The notes under the pieces are model-generated. The model ran no database searches. It saw only the letters and a list, made by a program, of their open reading frames with translations, and was not told where the DNA came from. From the NCBI GenBank assembly GCA_028283655.1, contig JAPWKE010000001.1:151082-215081 (forward strand): 64,000 nt of DNA, written 5' to 3'. Origin of the DNA: Acidobacteriaceae bacterium (GTDB taxonomy: Bacteria; Acidobacteriota; Terriglobia; Terriglobales; Acidobacteriaceae). The position numbers and the translations under genes are program-made. Of the stretch, positions 212-17,652 are shown in pieces; position 1 is the stretch's first letter; every line of letters starts with the position of its first letter.

Positions 212-505
212 TTTCCCCACAAAATCGCACTCTGTCATAGATTATTCGCATTCCATTTACTGTCCTGTTGCGATTACGGAGACGCCTCTCCCATAAGCTT
301 CAGGCATCGCAATCTGAATCGCGGGACGAGAATCGCACCAGGCCTTCAGCCTGCTGACACTATCGACCGTCTGCGAAAAATTACACGCGCCTGGTTTTGC
401 TGAGTAACAAAAGGCCACCTGCTGCTTCCGCAGCGGGCACGCCCTTGCTCGGCCTTGGCCCGGCGAATCTACGCGCTGCGCAAACCCGCGCAGAGGAGTC
501 TGTAC

Positions 506-3154
506 GTGAAGCGTTTCAAGCTCAGCCCTGTCGACCTCGTGCACCGATTTATCGGTCTCGCACTCTTCGCTCTCATTGCGCTTCTCCCGCTCGTGGCGCA
601 CGCCTCTGCCGGCAACAACAACCTCAAGATCGTCGCTTACTATGGCGCGGGCAACCTCTCCAAGTCGGAGTACGGCCGCGATACGATCCTCCTCTTCAAT
701 CCAACGCAGGCCCCCATCGCGATGAACGGCTGGAGCATCCAGACCGGCAGCACCAGCGGCGCGTTCACCTCCGCGATCTATCAGCTACCCAATGTCACAA
801 TTCCTGCGGGCGGTTATTACGCTATTGCTGCCAGCGGCGCCAGCTATACCTCGGGCTCGGCCTGCACGGGCGTGAACTGCAATACGAACTACGCCTACGA
901 CTACGAACTCAAGACGATCGAAGGCACCGCCACCGCGACAGACAATATCCTCGCCAGCACGGCGACGACCATCGCACTGGCGAATACAACTTCGCCGCTC
1001 GGTAGCTGCCCCACCACCTCCACGGGACTCGTCGACATGCTCGGCGTCGGTGCGGTCGATGGCAGCGCGGTTGTTACCTGCTGGGCAGGTGGCGGTTCCG
1101 CTCCTTACACACCTTCTTCGCTTAACGGTGCGACCACCAGCATTCACAGCGTGGTCTACGCTTACGGCACGGTCCGCAAAAACCGTTGCATCGATACGTT
1201 CAACAATGCAGCGGACTACCAGCTCGGCTACATCGACTTCGAGAACTCCGCGTCGACACCGAAGCCTTGCCCCACAGGCAATCAGCTTACGGTTTCTGCA
1301 GCGCAGGCTGTCCCAAGCAAACTTACGCTGAACACTGCCTCCTTGATCACGGCAAACGTAACGCCTGCTACCTCGCCCGCAAGCACAGGGCTGACGGTCA
1401 CCGCCGACCTCACGAACCTCGGCCTCTCGGCCACCACGCAGCTCTACGACGACGGCACACACGGCGACATCACCGCCAACGACGGCGTCTACTCTGCCAC
1501 GATCACGCCGACCAAAGGCACTGGTGAAGTCCTCGGCCTCATCGTCACCGCGACCGACACCCAGGGTGACACCGCTACCAGCAGCATCCCGGCTTCCGTT
1601 GGTGGCAACGTCCCCGGCCCTGGCAACAATAACCTGCGCATCGTGGCCTGGTACGGTGCGGGCAACCTCTCCGGCTCGCAGTACGCTCGCGATACGGTCA
1701 TCCTCTTCAACCCCACGCAGGCGGCTATCGCGATGAATAGCTGGTCGCTGCAGACGGGCAGCACCACTGGTTCTTTCACCACCGTCTACCAGTTACCCAA
1801 CACAACGATCCCTGCGGGCGGATACTACGCCATTGCAGGTAGTGGTACGGGCTATATCTCCAGCAGCGGTTGCAGCTCCACGGACTGCCAGGCAGCCTAT
1901 GCCTACGACTATCAGCTCAAGACGCAGGAGGGCACCGCGACCACCACCGACAACGATCTTTCGAGCACCGCTGTCAGCGTTGCCCTGGTCGATCAGCAGA
2001 CCGCTCTCGGCTCCGGCTGCCCCTGGGGCTCGCCACACATGATCGACATGGTCGGTATCGGCGCGTATGACGGCAGCGCCGTCACCACCTGCTACGCCGG
2101 GACAAACTTCGCTCCGTACACCCCGGCCACGCTCAACGGCGCAGCCACCAGCATCAACGGCGTCAAGTACGCGTACGCCACTGTCCGTAACAGCCGTTGC
2201 CTCAATACCTATGACAACGGCGCGGACTTCTCGCTCAACTACATTGACTTCAAGAACTCCACCTCCACCCCGGAGCCTTGCTCAGGTGGCACACAGTTCG
2301 GCCTGGCCGCTTCGGCTACACCGAACTCTCTCGGCGTCACGGAGTCTTTCACCATCAGTGCCGCCGTCACACCAGCCACAAGTCCTCAAAGCACTGGTGT
2401 TGCCGTAACCGCAGACCTTACCAACATCGGCCTCGCTGCTGGTACGCCGCTCTATGACGATGGCACGCACGGCGACGCTGTTGCAGGCGACAACGTTTAC
2501 TCGCTTACCACGGCAGTCTCCAGCGCCTCCGTCGGAACCACCGAAGGGCTCAGCGTTACGGCGGCCGACTCGCAGGGCAACAAGGCCAGCCGTACCTTCC
2601 CGCTCACCATCGAAGCCGGCACCATCAGCATGACGTCGAACACCTACACCGCCACGGTCAACTCCGGCGACGTCGCCAAATTCCTTCTCACGGTGGTTGG
2701 TGCACACGGCTACGGTGGAACACTCGGCATCACCTGCGTGGGTTCGCCGAACGCAAACAATAACGGCATCCCGGTCAGCACGCAGTGCGTTCCTACGCCG
2801 GGTGAGCTTGTGCTCACCAACAATGGCACGGGGACCATCTCGCTCGCCATCGCCACCGGCCTCACCGTGCAGGCACAGAACGAATCGCATCGCCGCGATC
2901 GCAATACGTTGCTTGCAGTCTCCTTCGGCACGCTGCTGCTCGTGGGCTTTGCCCGTCGCCGCCGTCGTCTCCCGGCACTGATGCTCATCGCCATCGCTGG
3001 CATTAGCACGCTTGGTCTCAGCGGTTGCGGTAAGAACGCAGGCCTCGGCAACGTAAACGCCGCGAAGGGGACGTACACCTTCACGCTCACGGCCACGGAC
3101 TCCGCTGTCAGCACCATTACCAGCGCTGTCACGCTCACCGTCAACGTCCAGTAG
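506..3154 (+). CDS. Exported lamin-tail / Ig-like surface protein with internal lipobox hairpin
   Basis: An 882-residue exported protein. I chose the GTG at 506 because an AGGAG Shine-Dalgarno sits 7 nt upstream and the protein then begins with a good signal peptide (about residues 1-35, ending AHASA). The mature part holds two copies of one module (about residues 36-372 and 373-705): a lamin-tail-like beta domain (starting NNNLKIVAYYGAG and NNNLRIVAWYGAG) followed by an Ig/PKD-like domain with a YDDGTHGD motif. From about residue 706 a third Ig-like domain begins, but it is interrupted by a hydrophobic segment, an Arg5 cluster, a second hydrophobic segment and the lipobox LSGC (Cys 841), after which two beta strands finish the protein. 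It is likely a surface protein with an adhesive or scaffold role; no catalytic motif is visible. It leads a set with the lipoprotein at 3208 and the receptor at 5424. Confidence 0.8.
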   Translation: MKRFKLSPVDLVHRFIGLALFALIALLPLVAHASAGNNNLKIVAYYGAGNLSKSEYGRDTILLFNPTQAPIAMNGWSIQTGSTSGAFTSAIYQLPNVTIPAGGYYAIAASGASYTSGSACTGVNCNTNYAYDYELKTIEGTATATDNILASTATTIALANTTSPLGSCPTTSTGLVDMLGVGAVDGSAVVTCWAGGGSAPYTPSSLNGATTSIHSVVYAYGTVRKNRCIDTFNNAADYQLGYIDFENSASTPKPCPTGNQLTVSAAQAVPSKLTLNTASLITANVTPATSPASTGLTVTADLTNLGLSATTQLYDDGTHGDITANDGVYSATITPTKGTGEVLGLIVTATDTQGDTATSSIPASVGGNVPGPGNNNLRIVAWYGAGNLSGSQYARDTVILFNPTQAAIAMNSWSLQTGSTTGSFTTVYQLPNTTIPAGGYYAIAGSGTGYISSSGCSSTDCQAAYAYDYQLKTQEGTATTTDNDLSSTAVSVALVDQQTALGSGCPWGSPHMIDMVGIGAYDGSAVTTCYAGTNFAPYTPATLNGAATSINGVKYAYATVRNSRCLNTYDNGADFSLNYIDFKNSTSTPEPCSGGTQFGLAASATPNSLGVTESFTISAAVTPATSPQSTGVAVTADLTNIGLAAGTPLYDDGTHGDAVAGDNVYSLTTAVSSASVGTTEGLSVTAADSQGNKASRTFPLTIEAGTISMTSNTYTATVNSGDVAKFLLTVVGAHGYGGTLGITCVGSPNANNNGIPVSTQCVPTPGELVLTNNGTGTISLAIATGLTVQAQNESHRRDRNTLLAVSFGTLLLVGFARRRRRLPALMLIAIAGISTLGLSGCGKNAGLGNVNAAKGTYTFTLTATDSAVSTITSAVTLTVNVQ

Positions 3155-3207
3155 CAATGCCCGCTGCGCTCTCTCACGAGCCTTTGAACAGCATGGAGTT
3201 TTTTCCG

Positions 3208-5352
3208 ATGAAGCCGAATCACTCTCGTCCCTGGCTGCCCTGTGTTGCTGCCTTTGCTTCTGCTCTCAGCCTGCTTGCCCTTACTGGTTGCGGCGTCAGT
3301 GGCTCACTGGCTGACAACAGCGTCACCCCCATCACGTTGCAGGGCCAGGTCTTTGCTGGCCGCAACTACATGGCTGGTGCAACCGTAAAGATCTACGCGA
3401 CGCAACCTACCGGTGTCGCCACCAATGGCACCTACGTTGGCAAGGCGAAGCTTCTGCAGACCATCACCGCAAACACAACGGGAACCTGGTCCACGCAGGG
3501 CGTTTCCTGTAGCAGCCCTGACCAGCTTTACGTCACGGCAGAAGCGGGTACGCCGTATCCTTCGAACAATACTGGCACCACGCTCGCAAACAATCCCAAC
3601 TCGCTCATGATGACGGCGATTGGTGATTGCAGCATCCTCGGCGCAGCGTCGGGCACACGCAACGTCACCTCTATCGTCACGAATGAGGCCAGTACTGTCG
3701 CTGCTGTCTGGGCGTTGCGCCCCTTTATCTCGCTCGACGGCACCACCGTCAACATCACGAGTTCGGCCATGAACTACGCGGGTACAAACGGCGTCGGCAC
3801 CACGGCGAACTTCGCTGGTCTCACCCACGCGTTCCTCAACGCCAACAACCTCAACCCCTACAAGCTTGGCGCGTTCAACCAGTACACCAACCAGCAGGAC
3901 AGCTCTACCACCGGCGGCCTCGTCCCCGTGCAGGAGCTCAACTCTCTGGCCTATGCGCAGTATCTCTGCACCATCGGTACGGCTGATGCGACAGACACCA
4001 GCTTCCCGCTCTGCCAGCAGCTTTACACGCTTGCCACGCCTCCCGGCGGCACTGCTCCGAAGAACTCGCTGCAGGCTATGCTGAACATCGCCACCGAACC
4101 CGCGAACAATGCTGCAGACATTCTCACCTTCACGCTCACTCCTGCGCCCTTCGGTACCGCGACGTCCTCGCAGCCCATCAGCACCGGCGGTGTCTACGTG
4201 CCTGCGCTCACCTCGCTGGGTACGCTGACTAACGACTGGAGCGTAGCGATCTACTACCTGCCAGGCTACGCAGGCACCGCGACCGGCCAGGCCTCTGTTA
4301 CGCCGGAGTATGTCGCGCTCGACGCCAACGACGATGTCTTCTTCTCCAACCCCAACGCCTCCACCGGCGTGCAGGGCAACATCGTCGCGCTCACCTCGGC
4401 GGGTGTGCCTTACTGGACCTCGGACACAGACACGACGCTCACGCAGCCACGTCAGCTCCAGGTCGACACCCTCGGCAACCTCTGGGTCGCTAACGGCGGC
4501 AGCGGCTCCACCGCCTTCGTGCAGCAGATGAACGCGAGCACCGGGGAGCTGCTCAACCGCTACCCGTCTACGGTGAGCGCTCCTTACGCTCTCGCCGTCG
4601 ATACCGCTGGCAACGTCTGGTACTCCACACAGACGACAAGCGGTCAGAACCTCTTCGAGATTCAGCGCAGCGGTTCAACCTTTGCGGCCGCCACGCTGGA
4701 TCCCGCGCCGGGCATGGCGTACCAGCCCTTCCAGATTCGCCCTGACACCAACGGAAACATCTGGGCTGCTGGGTACTCCTCGGCGACTGGCGCAGCGATG
4801 TTGCTGCCGAACACTGGCACCGCGGCAGCGCCGACCTACACCACCACCGCCAAGCTCTTCCAGATGACGGCCGATAGCTTCGGCGGTGGCATCACGATCG
4901 ACTCTGCGAATAACGCGTATACGAACGCCAACGGAACCGGTAACGCCTTCTATCAACTGTCGGTCACGGGCAGCGGATCTTCTGCGGCGATCACCAGCAC
5001 ACCGCTCGCAGTCAACGCCGCCACTCTCGCCGTCATGATGGACACCGACGGCGCAGGCAATGTCTGGTACGCCGACCACACCACGGGCACGGACTTCTAC
5101 AAGTACTCGCCTGTCGACAACTCGATCACCTCGTTCTATCCCTGCTACGTGGTCGCGACCATCACCTCCAGCGGCTACCAGACCTGCGTCACCGGCATCA
5201 GCACACGCTGGGACTTCTCCATCGACTCGTCCGGTGCCATGTGGGTCGCCAGCTACGGCAACTCCGGCGGCGGTCGCATCGCCCAGATCCTTGGCCTCGC
5301 TGCGCCCACTGTGCCTCTGCGTGCCCTCGGCAAAGCCGGCATCATGCCGTAA
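3208..5352 (+). CDS. NHL/Vgb-like beta-propeller lipoprotein
   Basis: A 714-residue lipoprotein. ATG 3208 is preferred over the earlier in-frame ATG at 3157 because GGAG lies 9 nt upstream and the product then starts with a classical lipoprotein signal ending in LTGC (Cys 28). An N-terminal region of about 330 residues contains a carboxypeptidase-like GQVFAGRNYMAGATV segment, followed from about residue 365 by repeated blades of the type VALDANDDVFF, VDTLGNLWVAN, VDTAGNVWYS, IDSANNAYTN and IDSSGAMWVASYG, typical of NHL/virginiamycin-B-lyase-like propellers. Such proteins are membrane-anchored and usually bind ligands rather than catalyse. The gene follows the lamin-tail gene by 53 bp and precedes the Oar-like receptor by 71 bp, so co-expression is likely. 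It is paralogous to the gene at 53482-55464. Confidence 0.8.
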   Translation: MKPNHSRPWLPCVAAFASALSLLALTGCGVSGSLADNSVTPITLQGQVFAGRNYMAGATVKIYATQPTGVATNGTYVGKAKLLQTITANTTGTWSTQGVSCSSPDQLYVTAEAGTPYPSNNTGTTLANNPNSLMMTAIGDCSILGAASGTRNVTSIVTNEASTVAAVWALRPFISLDGTTVNITSSAMNYAGTNGVGTTANFAGLTHAFLNANNLNPYKLGAFNQYTNQQDSSTTGGLVPVQELNSLAYAQYLCTIGTADATDTSFPLCQQLYTLATPPGGTAPKNSLQAMLNIATEPANNAADILTFTLTPAPFGTATSSQPISTGGVYVPALTSLGTLTNDWSVAIYYLPGYAGTATGQASVTPEYVALDANDDVFFSNPNASTGVQGNIVALTSAGVPYWTSDTDTTLTQPRQLQVDTLGNLWVANGGSGSTAFVQQMNASTGELLNRYPSTVSAPYALAVDTAGNVWYSTQTTSGQNLFEIQRSGSTFAAATLDPAPGMAYQPFQIRPDTNGNIWAAGYSSATGAAMLLPNTGTAAAPTYTTTAKLFQMTADSFGGGITIDSANNAYTNANGTGNAFYQLSVTGSGSSAAITSTPLAVNAATLAVMMDTDGAGNVWYADHTTGTDFYKYSPVDNSITSFYPCYVVATITSSGYQTCVTGISTRWDFSIDSSGAMWVASYGNSGGGRIAQILGLAAPTVPLRALGKAGIMP

Positions 5353-14469: not shown

Positions 14470-17400
14470 ATGCCTTCTCTTGCCGTTCGCCGCCCGCTGC
14501 GTTCTTTGTTTGCGGCATTTGCCGCCTTTAGCCTTTTGCCTCTTTCTTTGTCTGCCAGCGCGCAGACCGCCGATCTGGTGGCCCGCTCGGCTCGTGTGAA
14601 GGGAAGCGTGAATGACGCCCAGCGTTCCCCTCTGGCGAACCACGTCCCTGGGTACGCCAAGAGCGAGGCTTTGCCCTCCACGACGCTTAGTGGCACGAAG
14701 AACTTCACGCACCTGACCGTTGTTCTCTCGCGCTCGGCCGATGTTCAGGCGGCCTTTGAGCAGCTTCTGGCGGATCAGGCAAACCCTTCCTCGCCGCGTT
14801 ATCACCAGTGGCTTACACCGCAGCAGGTTGGCACGCTCTATGGTCCGGCCCAGGTCGATGTGGATGCGGTTACGGAATGGCTGAAGGCTGAAGGACTTAC
14901 GGTCGAAAGCGTCGCTCCGAACCGTCTCTTTATCAGCTTCGGTGGTTCGGTCACGGCGGTTTCCAAGGCTTTCTCTACCTCGTTCCGCACCTTTGCGCTG
15001 GCGAACGGTGAGTCTCGCTACTCGCTCGTCAGTGAGCCGACTGTGCCCACGGCCATCGCTGGCGTTGTACAGAATGTGGCTGGCCTCTCGCAGTCCATTC
15101 ATCACCCCAATGTGCACCGCTCTGACCTCATTCAGGCTGACAGCAGCTCGAGCAGCGCTGGGACTGGCTCCCACTTGCCCAGCCTGAACAGCTCCACGGG
15201 AGCGCACTATCTTGTCTCCGGCGACTTCGCTGTGGCCTATGACCTCAACTCGGTTTATAACTCCGGCTACACCGGCACCGGTCAGCGCGTCGCTATCGTT
15301 GGCGAGTCGCGTGTCGACACCACCGACATCAAGGCTCTCCAGTCGATCCAGGGCTTCACGACGTACAACCTGCCCAACGTTGTGATCCCGCCCACTGGCG
15401 TTGATCCTGGCTATGGTGGCGGTTCGACCGCCTGCACGTCCAATTGCACTATCGACAGCGGTGTGCAGGATGAAGCCACCCTCGATGTGAATCGCGTTAC
15501 TGGCACAGCCCCCGGCGCGACCGTCGACCTCGTCATCTCCGGCGACGTGGGAAGCGGCAGTACCGTCGCTACCGACGGTCTCTTCATCGCGATCAATCAC
15601 GAGATCAATACGCTCGCTGACCCCATCATGAGCATCAGCTTCGGTGGCTGCGAAAACCTCAATGGCTCTTCGCTGACGAACTACGAAGCCAGCATCTTCT
15701 CAACCGCCGCTGCCGAAGGCATCTCCACTTTCGTCTCTTCCGGAGACTCCGGCGCGGCTGGTTGCAACGCCTTTGCGAACTCGGACCAAAGTATCCCGGC
15801 CTCTGGTCAGGTTCTCAGCATCAACGACTTCTGCTCCAGCCAGTACGTCACTTGCATCGGTGGTACGCAGTTCGCCGATACCGCCAGTCCCACCACCTAC
15901 TGGAGCACCTCCAGCGGCACCAACTACGTCTCTCTCAAGTCCTACATCCCGGAAGGTGCCTGGAACGAACCCTCGGTCACTAAGAGCATCTATTACCAGG
16001 GAGCGACCGGCGGCGGGCTCAGCGTCTACATCGCCAAGCCCTCATGGCAGACCGGAACGGGCGTTCTTGCAGGCAACTTCCGTGAGGTCCCCGACCTCGC
16101 CTTTACCGCTTCCGTGCATGACGGCTTCGTCACCTGCCTTGAGTACCTGGGCGCGACCTGCGGCAGTTTCTACGGCTTCGGTGGCACCTCGGCGGCTGCG
16201 CCTTCCATGGCGGGTATCCAGGCCCTGGTCAACCAACGCCTCACCAAGGCTCAGGGCAACATCAACCCTCAGCTCTACACGCTGGCCAATGGTACTTCGG
16301 CTTCCACCGTCTTCCATGACGCCACTGTCACCTCCTCGGGTGTCTCGGGTTGCGTGGTGACAACGCCGTCGCTCTGCAACAACTCCACCCCCTCGCGCAC
16401 AGCACTCACCGGCGGCCTCTCCGGCTACCTGCTCACGGCGGGCTGGGACGGCTCCACGGGCTGGGGCTCGCTCGATGTCGCCAACTACATCAGCGCTCTG
16501 GCTGCTTCGGCAGGCATCACGACGACGACTGCGCTTACCGCAGCCCCCACCACGCTCACCCTTGGCGGATCGACGGTTCTGACGGCAACCATCACGCCGT
16601 CAACCACATCTTCCTCTACCCTCAGCGGCACGGTCACCTTCTCCAACGGTTCCACGACCCTTGGTACTGGCACGGTCACCAATAACGTGGCGACGTACAC
16701 CTATACCCCGGCCGCAACTGGAACCTACTCCATCACGGCAACCTATGGTGGCGATACCACCTTCAGCTCTTCCACGTCGTCGGCAGCCTCGGTCGTCGTC
16801 TCCGGTCCGTACCTCATCACCCCGGCATCCACCAGCGTCTCGGTCGCAGCCGGTGTCACCACAACCGATGCCATCACCGTTACCTCGATCGCTCCCTTTG
16901 CCGGGTCGGTTCCCCTCAGCTGCGCGGTGTCCACGTCCTCCACGTCGACAGGCGGTTCCTGCTCCGTCACCAGTCCGGTGACGCTCACCTCCGGCGGCAC
17001 TGCGGCGGCGACCCTCTCCATCAAAGGTGGAACAACCGGTTCGATGACTGTCACAGTCTCCGGTACCTCGACCGCAGGCACCATCACTTCCACGCCGATC
17101 ACCGTTACGGTGACCCCTGCACTCACCCTCACGGCCTCGCCCTCGTCGCTCTCCTTCACTTCAGGCGCGACCACGGGTAATACCAGCACGATCACCTTGA
17201 CCCCGGCCTCTGGAGTTGCTGCTGGAACGGCAACCCTGCAGTGCTCCATTACCACAAGCACTGCGGCCTATCCGGCTTCCTGCGCTCTCTCCAGCACCTC
17301 GGTTGCACTTGCAGCAGGCGGCACGGGCACCACGGTCCTCACCATCGGTTCGCAGACTGCCACCACCTCGGCCAGCAAGTCGGCGACAACCGCAACGGCA

Positions 17401-17652
17401 GGCTTCTCCGGCTTCCGCTTCGCGGCTCTCGGCCTGCTCTTCGCTTCGCTGCTTGCCTTCCGCAAGCGCCGCGGCCTGGCTTCGCTGGCAGTCTTCGGTC
17501 TGCTGGCTCTCGGCCTCTCCACCCTCACCGGTTGCGGTGGCGACAACGCCCCCAAGACCACCAAATCCTCCGCAGGCAGCTACACCGCAACGGTCACTGC
17601 CACATTCGGCGGCCAAACCGCCAGCACCACGGTAGCGGTCACCATTCAGTAG
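14470..17652 (+). CDS. Sedolisin (S53) protease with pro-domain, Ig-like repeats and internal lipobox hairpin
   Basis: A 1060-residue secreted serine-carboxyl protease. A signal peptide (1-31) is followed by a pro-kumamolisin activation domain (about 60-215, with SPRYHQWLTPQQ) and the S53 catalytic domain (about 245-685). Catalytic Glu 335 and Asp 339 lie in DEATLD, the oxyanion Asp 426 in SSGDSG, and the nucleophile Ser 574 in GFGGTSAAAPSM. A calcium-site region near WDGSTGWGSLD closes the domain. Ig-like repeats follow from about residue 690. The last Ig-like domain is interrupted by a hydrophobic segment, R-K-R-R (998-1001), a second hydrophobic segment and lipobox LTGC (Cys 1022), then two terminal strands. 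S53 enzymes normally act at acidic pH, fitting an acid-soil lifestyle. The C-terminal hairpin matches that of the protein at 506-3154. Confidence 0.93.
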   Translation: MPSLAVRRPLRSLFAAFAAFSLLPLSLSASAQTADLVARSARVKGSVNDAQRSPLANHVPGYAKSEALPSTTLSGTKNFTHLTVVLSRSADVQAAFEQLLADQANPSSPRYHQWLTPQQVGTLYGPAQVDVDAVTEWLKAEGLTVESVAPNRLFISFGGSVTAVSKAFSTSFRTFALANGESRYSLVSEPTVPTAIAGVVQNVAGLSQSIHHPNVHRSDLIQADSSSSSAGTGSHLPSLNSSTGAHYLVSGDFAVAYDLNSVYNSGYTGTGQRVAIVGESRVDTTDIKALQSIQGFTTYNLPNVVIPPTGVDPGYGGGSTACTSNCTIDSGVQDEATLDVNRVTGTAPGATVDLVISGDVGSGSTVATDGLFIAINHEINTLADPIMSISFGGCENLNGSSLTNYEASIFSTAAAEGISTFVSSGDSGAAGCNAFANSDQSIPASGQVLSINDFCSSQYVTCIGGTQFADTASPTTYWSTSSGTNYVSLKSYIPEGAWNEPSVTKSIYYQGATGGGLSVYIAKPSWQTGTGVLAGNFREVPDLAFTASVHDGFVTCLEYLGATCGSFYGFGGTSAAAPSMAGIQALVNQRLTKAQGNINPQLYTLANGTSASTVFHDATVTSSGVSGCVVTTPSLCNNSTPSRTALTGGLSGYLLTAGWDGSTGWGSLDVANYISALAASAGITTTTALTAAPTTLTLGGSTVLTATITPSTTSSSTLSGTVTFSNGSTTLGTGTVTNNVATYTYTPAATGTYSITATYGGDTTFSSSTSSAASVVVSGPYLITPASTSVSVAAGVTTTDAITVTSIAPFAGSVPLSCAVSTSSTSTGGSCSVTSPVTLTSGGTAAATLSIKGGTTGSMTVTVSGTSTAGTITSTPITVTVTPALTLTASPSSLSFTSGATTGNTSTITLTPASGVAAGTATLQCSITTSTAAYPASCALSSTSVALAAGGTGTTVLTIGSQTATTSASKSATTATAGFSGFRFAALGLLFASLLAFRKRRGLASLAVFGLLALGLSTLTGCGGDNAPKTTKSSAGSYTATVTATFGGQTASTTVAVTIQ

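Follow-up and report, generated by a model that had tools for sequence, protein, structure and literature searches.

Ordinary lipoproteins, which are handled by Lgt, LspA and the Lol system, begin with an Arg/Lys-rich n-region followed by a hydrophobic stretch, a lipobox and a Cys, and the Lgt/LspA pathway leaves this Cys lipidated at the N-terminus. Immunoglobulin (Ig) domains in which the fold is completed by strands of a separate chain are known from chaperone-usher pilins and from SpyTag/SpyCatcher. In the MYXO-CTERM system, dozens of exported proteins per genome of one lineage are involved, and the myxosortase MrtX sorts surface proteins; there, the Cys lies before a single helix and an Arg-rich chain end in an inverted topology, no lipobox is defined, and cleavage, distal to the Cys, is due to a CPBP protease (PMC11980579). 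The present analysis concerns the C-terminal tail of an exported protein encoded at 506..3154 of a window of 64,000 nucleotides (the whole stretch of DNA analysed) from an Acidobacteriaceae bacterium. Sequences and structure models indicate that many exported proteins of Acidobacteriaceae, a family of soil bacteria, end, as this one does, in an Ig-like domain interrupted by a hairpin with a putative lipid signal.

The tail shares with MYXO-CTERM its presence on many exported proteins per genome, an invariant Cys, a transmembrane helix and an Arg cluster. Its Cys, in contrast, follows the second of two helices, and the chain continues for another 32-147 residues; by analogy, the tail works like MYXO-CTERM but is not MYXO-CTERM. 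The likeness to ordinary lipoproteins consists in an Arg/Lys-rich region, a hydrophobic stretch, Gly, Ala or Ser at position -1, the Cys and a Gly/Ser-rich continuation. The tail is not a canonical lipoprotein, however, since its signal lies inside the protein, 32-147 residues from the C-terminus, and stands behind an exported body with a signal that resembles those of signal peptidase I (SPI). Unlike in the pilins and SpyTag/SpyCatcher, both parts of the Ig-like domain are found in one chain, and their separation, if any, would be the work of the lipoprotein signal peptidase.

An earlier note on this DNA had called the device undescribed, which could not be upheld, as the tail is already modelled in NCBIfam as NF058595.1 (invert_tail, "lipo-invert putative C-terminal anchoring domain"). 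The 113 positions of this profile cover approximately strand E, the hairpin and the lipobox up to the chain end. With the tails alone, scores of 41.3 bits for the window protein and 47.8 bits for a sedolisin of the same window were obtained, above the curated cut-off of 37. A six-frame search gave 42.8 and 48.4 bits, respectively, and a scan of full-length proteins gave 37.0 bits for the window protein and no listed match for the sedolisin. Judged by score, both are members of this catalogued domain. No paper on the lipo-invert tail, on NF058595, on an internal lipobox or on bacterial C-terminal lipidation with a lipobox was found in a literature search of open-licence papers. NF058595 is a profile with a putative role, and the split of one Ig fold, for which support is presented here, is perhaps already noted in it. 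What was worked out here is the place of the interruption, a fixed loop of the Ig fold, and the conservation of the Cys in independently fetched sedolisins, on neither of which a paper was found in this search.

Two tails in the window

The window protein (882 residues, database protein P0005) is encoded on the forward strand, with its start codon at 506. It has a signal peptide at its N-terminus and the split Ig-like domain at its end, besides two stretches each of the lamin-tail (LTD) and choice-of-anchor-X types. Direct reading of the frame, which is open from 455 to 3154, gave the end ...GTISLAIATGLTVQAQNESHRRDRN-TLLAVSFGTLLLVGFA-RRRRR-LPALMLIAIAGISTLGLSGC-GKNAGLGNVNAAK-GTYTFTLTATDSAVSTITSAVTLTVNVQ and the stop; in this end a beta region is followed by a hydrophobic stretch, RRRRR, a second hydrophobic stretch, LSGC, a linker and GTYTFTLTATDSAVSTITSAVTLTVNVQ. 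Tail residues 1-84, encoded at 2618..2869, were recognized as strands A-E of the last Ig-like domain from the AlphaFold model and from a match of the intact-domain profile that halts at the hairpin. Hydrophobic helix 1 of the hairpin (2900..2953, model helix 95-112) precedes the RRRRR loop (2954..2968), which is predicted to be cytoplasmic; a net charge of at least +3 was found in 126 of 128 aligned tails. Helix 2 (2969..3025), like helix 1 taken from the sequence and the model, ends in the lipobox residues L-S-G, and the lipobox Cys is encoded at 3026..3028. It is residue 841 of the 882, or 858 when counted from the TTG at 455. Strands F and G, which would close the domain, were placed by the model at 3068..3151, with the stop right behind. 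For the 882-residue start, the five consecutive Arg, the LSGC and Cys 841 had all been read correctly in the earlier note.

The sedolisin (S53) protease at 14470..17652 of the forward strand shows the same order of parts, by sequence reading and by its NF058595 match. Its split Ig-like domain (17119..17649), assigned from the same profile match and an AlphaFold model, contains a helix at 17407-17457, RKRR, a helix at 17479-17520, LTGC with Cys 1022 at 17533-17535, and strands F-G at 17575-17646. The earlier note's statement that this gene has the same architecture is supported. Directly in front of the split domain, at 16810..17118 of the same strand, the Ig-like domain occurs once more without interruption, which provides an internal comparison. 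In the structure predicted for this copy, strands 64-72 and 77-87, by their order E and F, are four residues apart.

In the models of both window tails, the hairpin was placed between strands E and F. In strands A-E of the window protein the predicted local distance difference test (pLDDT) score, taken by block, was 95-98, but 74 and 81 over tail residues 41-60. Together with the intact-domain profile, whose matches stop at the hairpin, these models support the claim that the strands on both sides of the hairpin belong to a single Ig-like domain. The structure prediction that had been proposed as a check placed F-G in that domain in both tails, and not in a separate one. In a first control the profile ran through 14 of 15 repeats, a circular result because those 15 repeats had built the profile; the control was redone on repeats from fetched sedolisins, whose profile matches likewise support the single domain.

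A further tail of this genome, L113 (identical with L052; G000:C3:738623-744000), contains a whole extra Ig-like domain, matched by Pfam Big_3_5 at 1145-1232, between its Cys (residue 1129) and the last strands. By eye, L131 (Granulicella mallensis) and L138 have such an extra domain behind the Cys as well. All three still finish with F-G-like strands, as would be expected if the closing strands must complete the interrupted domain. In L034, by eye, a longer insert separates the F-like strand from the final one.

Conservation and distribution of the tail

The pattern goes beyond a chance occurrence: the Cys was the sole invariant column among 56 aligned tails (56/56), whose mean column identity was 26%, and also among 34 aligned sedolisin ends. 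In a larger alignment it was kept in 128 of 128 tails, preceded by Gly (92), Ala (29) or Ser (7) at position -1. The residue right after it was never Asp, and a Gly/Ser-rich stretch follows. The distance from the last Arg/Lys to the Cys was 17-20 residues in 108 of these tails. The Arg cluster and the lipobox were in this way found to be general features of the tail, and the alignment suggested as a conservation check revealed no tail in which the Cys had been lost. With its charged region and hydrophobic stretch in front, the lipobox has the pattern by which a lipoprotein is recognized from sequence.

The larger alignment was drawn from a set of 136 sequences, made up of 60 tails, 59 sedolisin relatives and 17 relatives of the window protein, the 8 sequences beyond the 128 being sedolisin relatives without the tail. 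The set omits L163, L194, L201, the loci at contig ends, 14 proteobacterial loci and P0023 (a weak sedolisin match). The alignment of 56 omits L034 and L052, which have long inserts, and L066 and L082, which nearly duplicate L060 and L081, as well as the window's own tails, L020 and L028, which were entered as window references. The 17 closest relatives of the window protein are 44-53% identical across the tail, and the Cys is kept in all 17.

Because 60 of the 128 tails came from tail-based searches, more weight is given to the sedolisins, which were fetched by whole-enzyme similarity with one of six search words falling in the tail. Among 60 acidobacterial sedolisins with a complete 3' end, the tail was present in 50, all with the Cys, and absent from 8; none of 12 proteobacterial sedolisins had it. 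Six of the 80 loci, cut at a contig end, were set aside, and the 50 may hold one duplicate, since L200 and L201 have identical figures and may be copies. The acidobacterial sedolisin L163 ends in an uninterrupted domain. In L194, from Acidobacteriaceae KBS 83, helix 1 contains a frame-shift, and the lipobox and closing strands are visible in another frame. Two loci of unclear label, L159 and L164, both have the tail. The record of L164 is labelled Verrucomicrobia (Tous-C9LFEB), with 59% identity in the best segment, and may be either a misbinned acidobacterial contig or a transfer.

NF058595 was matched at 36 places of this genome at E<=0.01 (two of them sharing one open frame), at 29 at E<=1e-6 and at 22 above the cut-off. 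Matches at E<=0.01 were likewise obtained in 11 of 14 control genomes, none above the cut-off, and at 1e-6 no control had any; only the figure at E<=1e-6 is therefore specific. At this threshold, 57 of 396 sampled genomes of the phylum were matched, 44 of them Acidobacteriaceae and 13 elsewhere. The latter, among 352 sampled outside the family, had one or two matches each. These counts per genome are lower bounds, with at most 11 candidates scored in each. The result is read as presence in 44 of 44 sampled Acidobacteriaceae genomes, because the 20 listed of the 339 match-free genomes, ordered by kinship, include no member of the family. Among the tail-bearing bodies of this genome are six sedolisins (the window's included), two polygalacturonases, an alginate lyase, NHL and FG-GAP propellers and LTD proteins. 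The Pfam scan covered 31 of the 34 own-genome loci that were fetched, leaving out L114, L117 and L118; L117, among the six weakest matches to NF058595, is doubtful as a tail. One strong tail each, with 81.1 and 75.5 bits and a thin Arg cluster, was seen in L070 and L076 from two distant Acidobacteriota of family f43 (genomes G216 and G272), possibly transferred or ancestral.

Proposed anchoring and its alternatives

The best explanation, which we regard as evenly poised between right and wrong, is that about 180 C-terminal residues constitute an anchor in which helix 2 is an internal type II signal, LspA cuts the chain and the Ig fold holds the two resulting chains. A fuller version is put forward more tentatively. 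In it, an internal type II signal in the E-F loop would be lipidated by Lgt and LspA would cleave the chain there, after which the Ig fold would be a non-covalent clamp between the body and a short lipidated two-strand peptide, in many surface proteins per genome and in the whole family.

The body would be exported by its own N-terminal Sec/SPI signal. The N-termini of tail proteins look like SPI signals, the lipobox signal being internal and not N-terminal. The motif xxAQ, as it occurs behind an SPI site, was found within the first 130 residues in 34 of 36 own-genome entries, two of which are parts of the same gene; a simple-rule count of SPI signals over all reading frames was noisy. Helix 1 would cross the membrane from outside to inside, the Arg loop would stay cytoplasmic and helix 2 would return outwards, giving the topology of a type II signal. 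By the positive-inside rule, this orientation of helix 2 is the one read by Lgt and LspA, and its length, charge and lipobox match those of a type II signal peptide. Lgt would lipidate the Cys and LspA would cut before it, leaving the lipidated residue as a new N-terminus some 40 residues ahead of the chain end. The lipidated strands F-G would remain non-covalently paired with strands A-E, which belong to the body with its hairpin remnant. After the cut only the fold could hold the closing strands, since 114 of 128 tails have no further Cys behind the lipobox. The protein would in this way gain a lipid anchor near its C-terminal end. In Ig folds the E-F loop and the C-terminus are located at the same pole, so that the domain would sit on the membrane and the body would project away from it. 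The hairpin remnant might later be removed, letting the lipid carry the complex to the outer membrane.

If this is true, it would answer how a Gram-negative bacterium can equip large exported enzymes and other proteins with a C-terminal lipid anchor, and it would widen the range of substrates for Lgt and LspA. Signal-peptide predictors based on the N-terminus would miss such proteins as lipoproteins. The split Ig-like domain would be a natural counterpart to engineered split-Ig tags, and the products natural two-chain "inverted lipoproteins", of which no described example was found in the literature searched.

Several observations weigh against internal cleavage and the clamp. The genome has no second LspA, one match being found here and in each of 15 sampled Acidobacteriaceae genomes. 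After the cut, the body would keep its two-helix inner-membrane anchor, and unless this hairpin were trimmed, the lipid would seem to add little. No clear trimming site was detected between strand E and helix 1, where no column exceeded 1.6 bits in 56 tails, apart from a Thr that closes strand E, is conserved in 46 of 56 and is counted to the domain. The lipobox had been called perfect, and this is correct for the window protein but fails for 12 of its 17 closest relatives, which have Thr at -3 (NTTAC in 9), by sequence a weak lipobox; across all tails the figure is 20 of 128. The F-G piece alone barely matches the intact-domain profile, whose end is strand F: a match behind the Cys was found in 24 of 60 tails, mostly insignificant and at best 9.8 bits, and in 21 of 60 the local match begins before the Cys. 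The alignments behind the AlphaFold models are made up of such tails themselves. Finally, 60 of the 128 tails (59 by NF058595 and one by the sedolisin tail) were fetched with the Cys-containing tail itself.

A rather unlikely alternative is that Lgt lipidates the Cys while the chain stays uncut or is partly cut, giving one chain with a two-helix hairpin and a diacylglyceryl group beside the closing strands. The Cys conservation in the 56 and 128 tails agrees with this equally, and an uncut chain guarantees the placement of F-G that the Ig fold needs. However, Gly, Ala or Ser at -1 in 128 of 128 tails fits the pattern read by LspA, and such strictness would be unneeded without a cut. It is less likely still that the hairpin is a plain membrane anchor and that the Cys has another use, for instance with another acyltransferase or, as proposed for MYXO-CTERM, a sorting protease. 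The invariant Cys near the transmembrane-Arg unit of MYXO-CTERM shows that such a residue can belong to another kind of sorting enzyme (PMC11980579). In the present tail, unlike in MYXO-CTERM, the Cys follows the helix in a lipobox context and with type II topology.

We consider it very improbable that helix 1 and the Arg cluster form an exosortase-type C-terminal sorting signal, the lipobox half being a remnant or a fused second gene. A transmembrane helix followed by an Arg cluster does resemble PEP-CTERM-type signals, and this genome has two exosortase homologues. Nevertheless, apart from the Thr ending strand E, no conserved motif stands between that strand and helix 1. Conservation is highest at the lipobox Cys, which is not a decaying remnant. 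An exosortase match was present in 23 of 45 sampled Acidobacteriaceae genomes and absent from the tail-bearing genomes G007, G023, G179, G321 and G394, so that the enzyme is not required. Exosortase-type sorting of helix 1 was set aside for the missing motif and these exosortase-free genomes. The tail was likewise rejected as a PEP-CTERM/exosortase substrate, since no short motif precedes the transmembrane-Arg unit and the unit is not C-terminal.

Processing enzymes and the neighbouring gene

This genome encodes two Lgt homologues (G000:C3:1233491-1234258 and C2:152324-153025), one LspA and one LolC/E homologue below the cut-off. Two or more Lgt homologues were found in 13 of 15 sampled Acidobacteriaceae genomes. 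The best match to the Pfam model of Lgt was only 1e-32 to 1e-43 in 10 of the 15, most of the phylum reaching about 1e-45 to 1e-70. The second Lgt was rejected as a dedicated enzyme, since it is not required: 2 of the 15 (G023 and G121) have one Lgt and still strong tails. The xxA-Gln found close to where the signal peptide ends in tail proteins of this genome resembles the "Q-rule", which is reported as specific to Bacteroidetes (PMC5837995).

A lipobox-like DNA pattern was uninformative in the window, with 155 matches on both strands versus 94 for the reversed pattern, and the 6 candidates for ordinary N-terminal lipoproteins in the same DNA were too few for comparison. At 3157-5352, two bases past the stop of the window protein, begins a gene with an ordinary-looking N-terminal lipoprotein signal (LTGC); the two genes could possibly form an operon in which an inverted-type lipoprotein is paired with a normal one.
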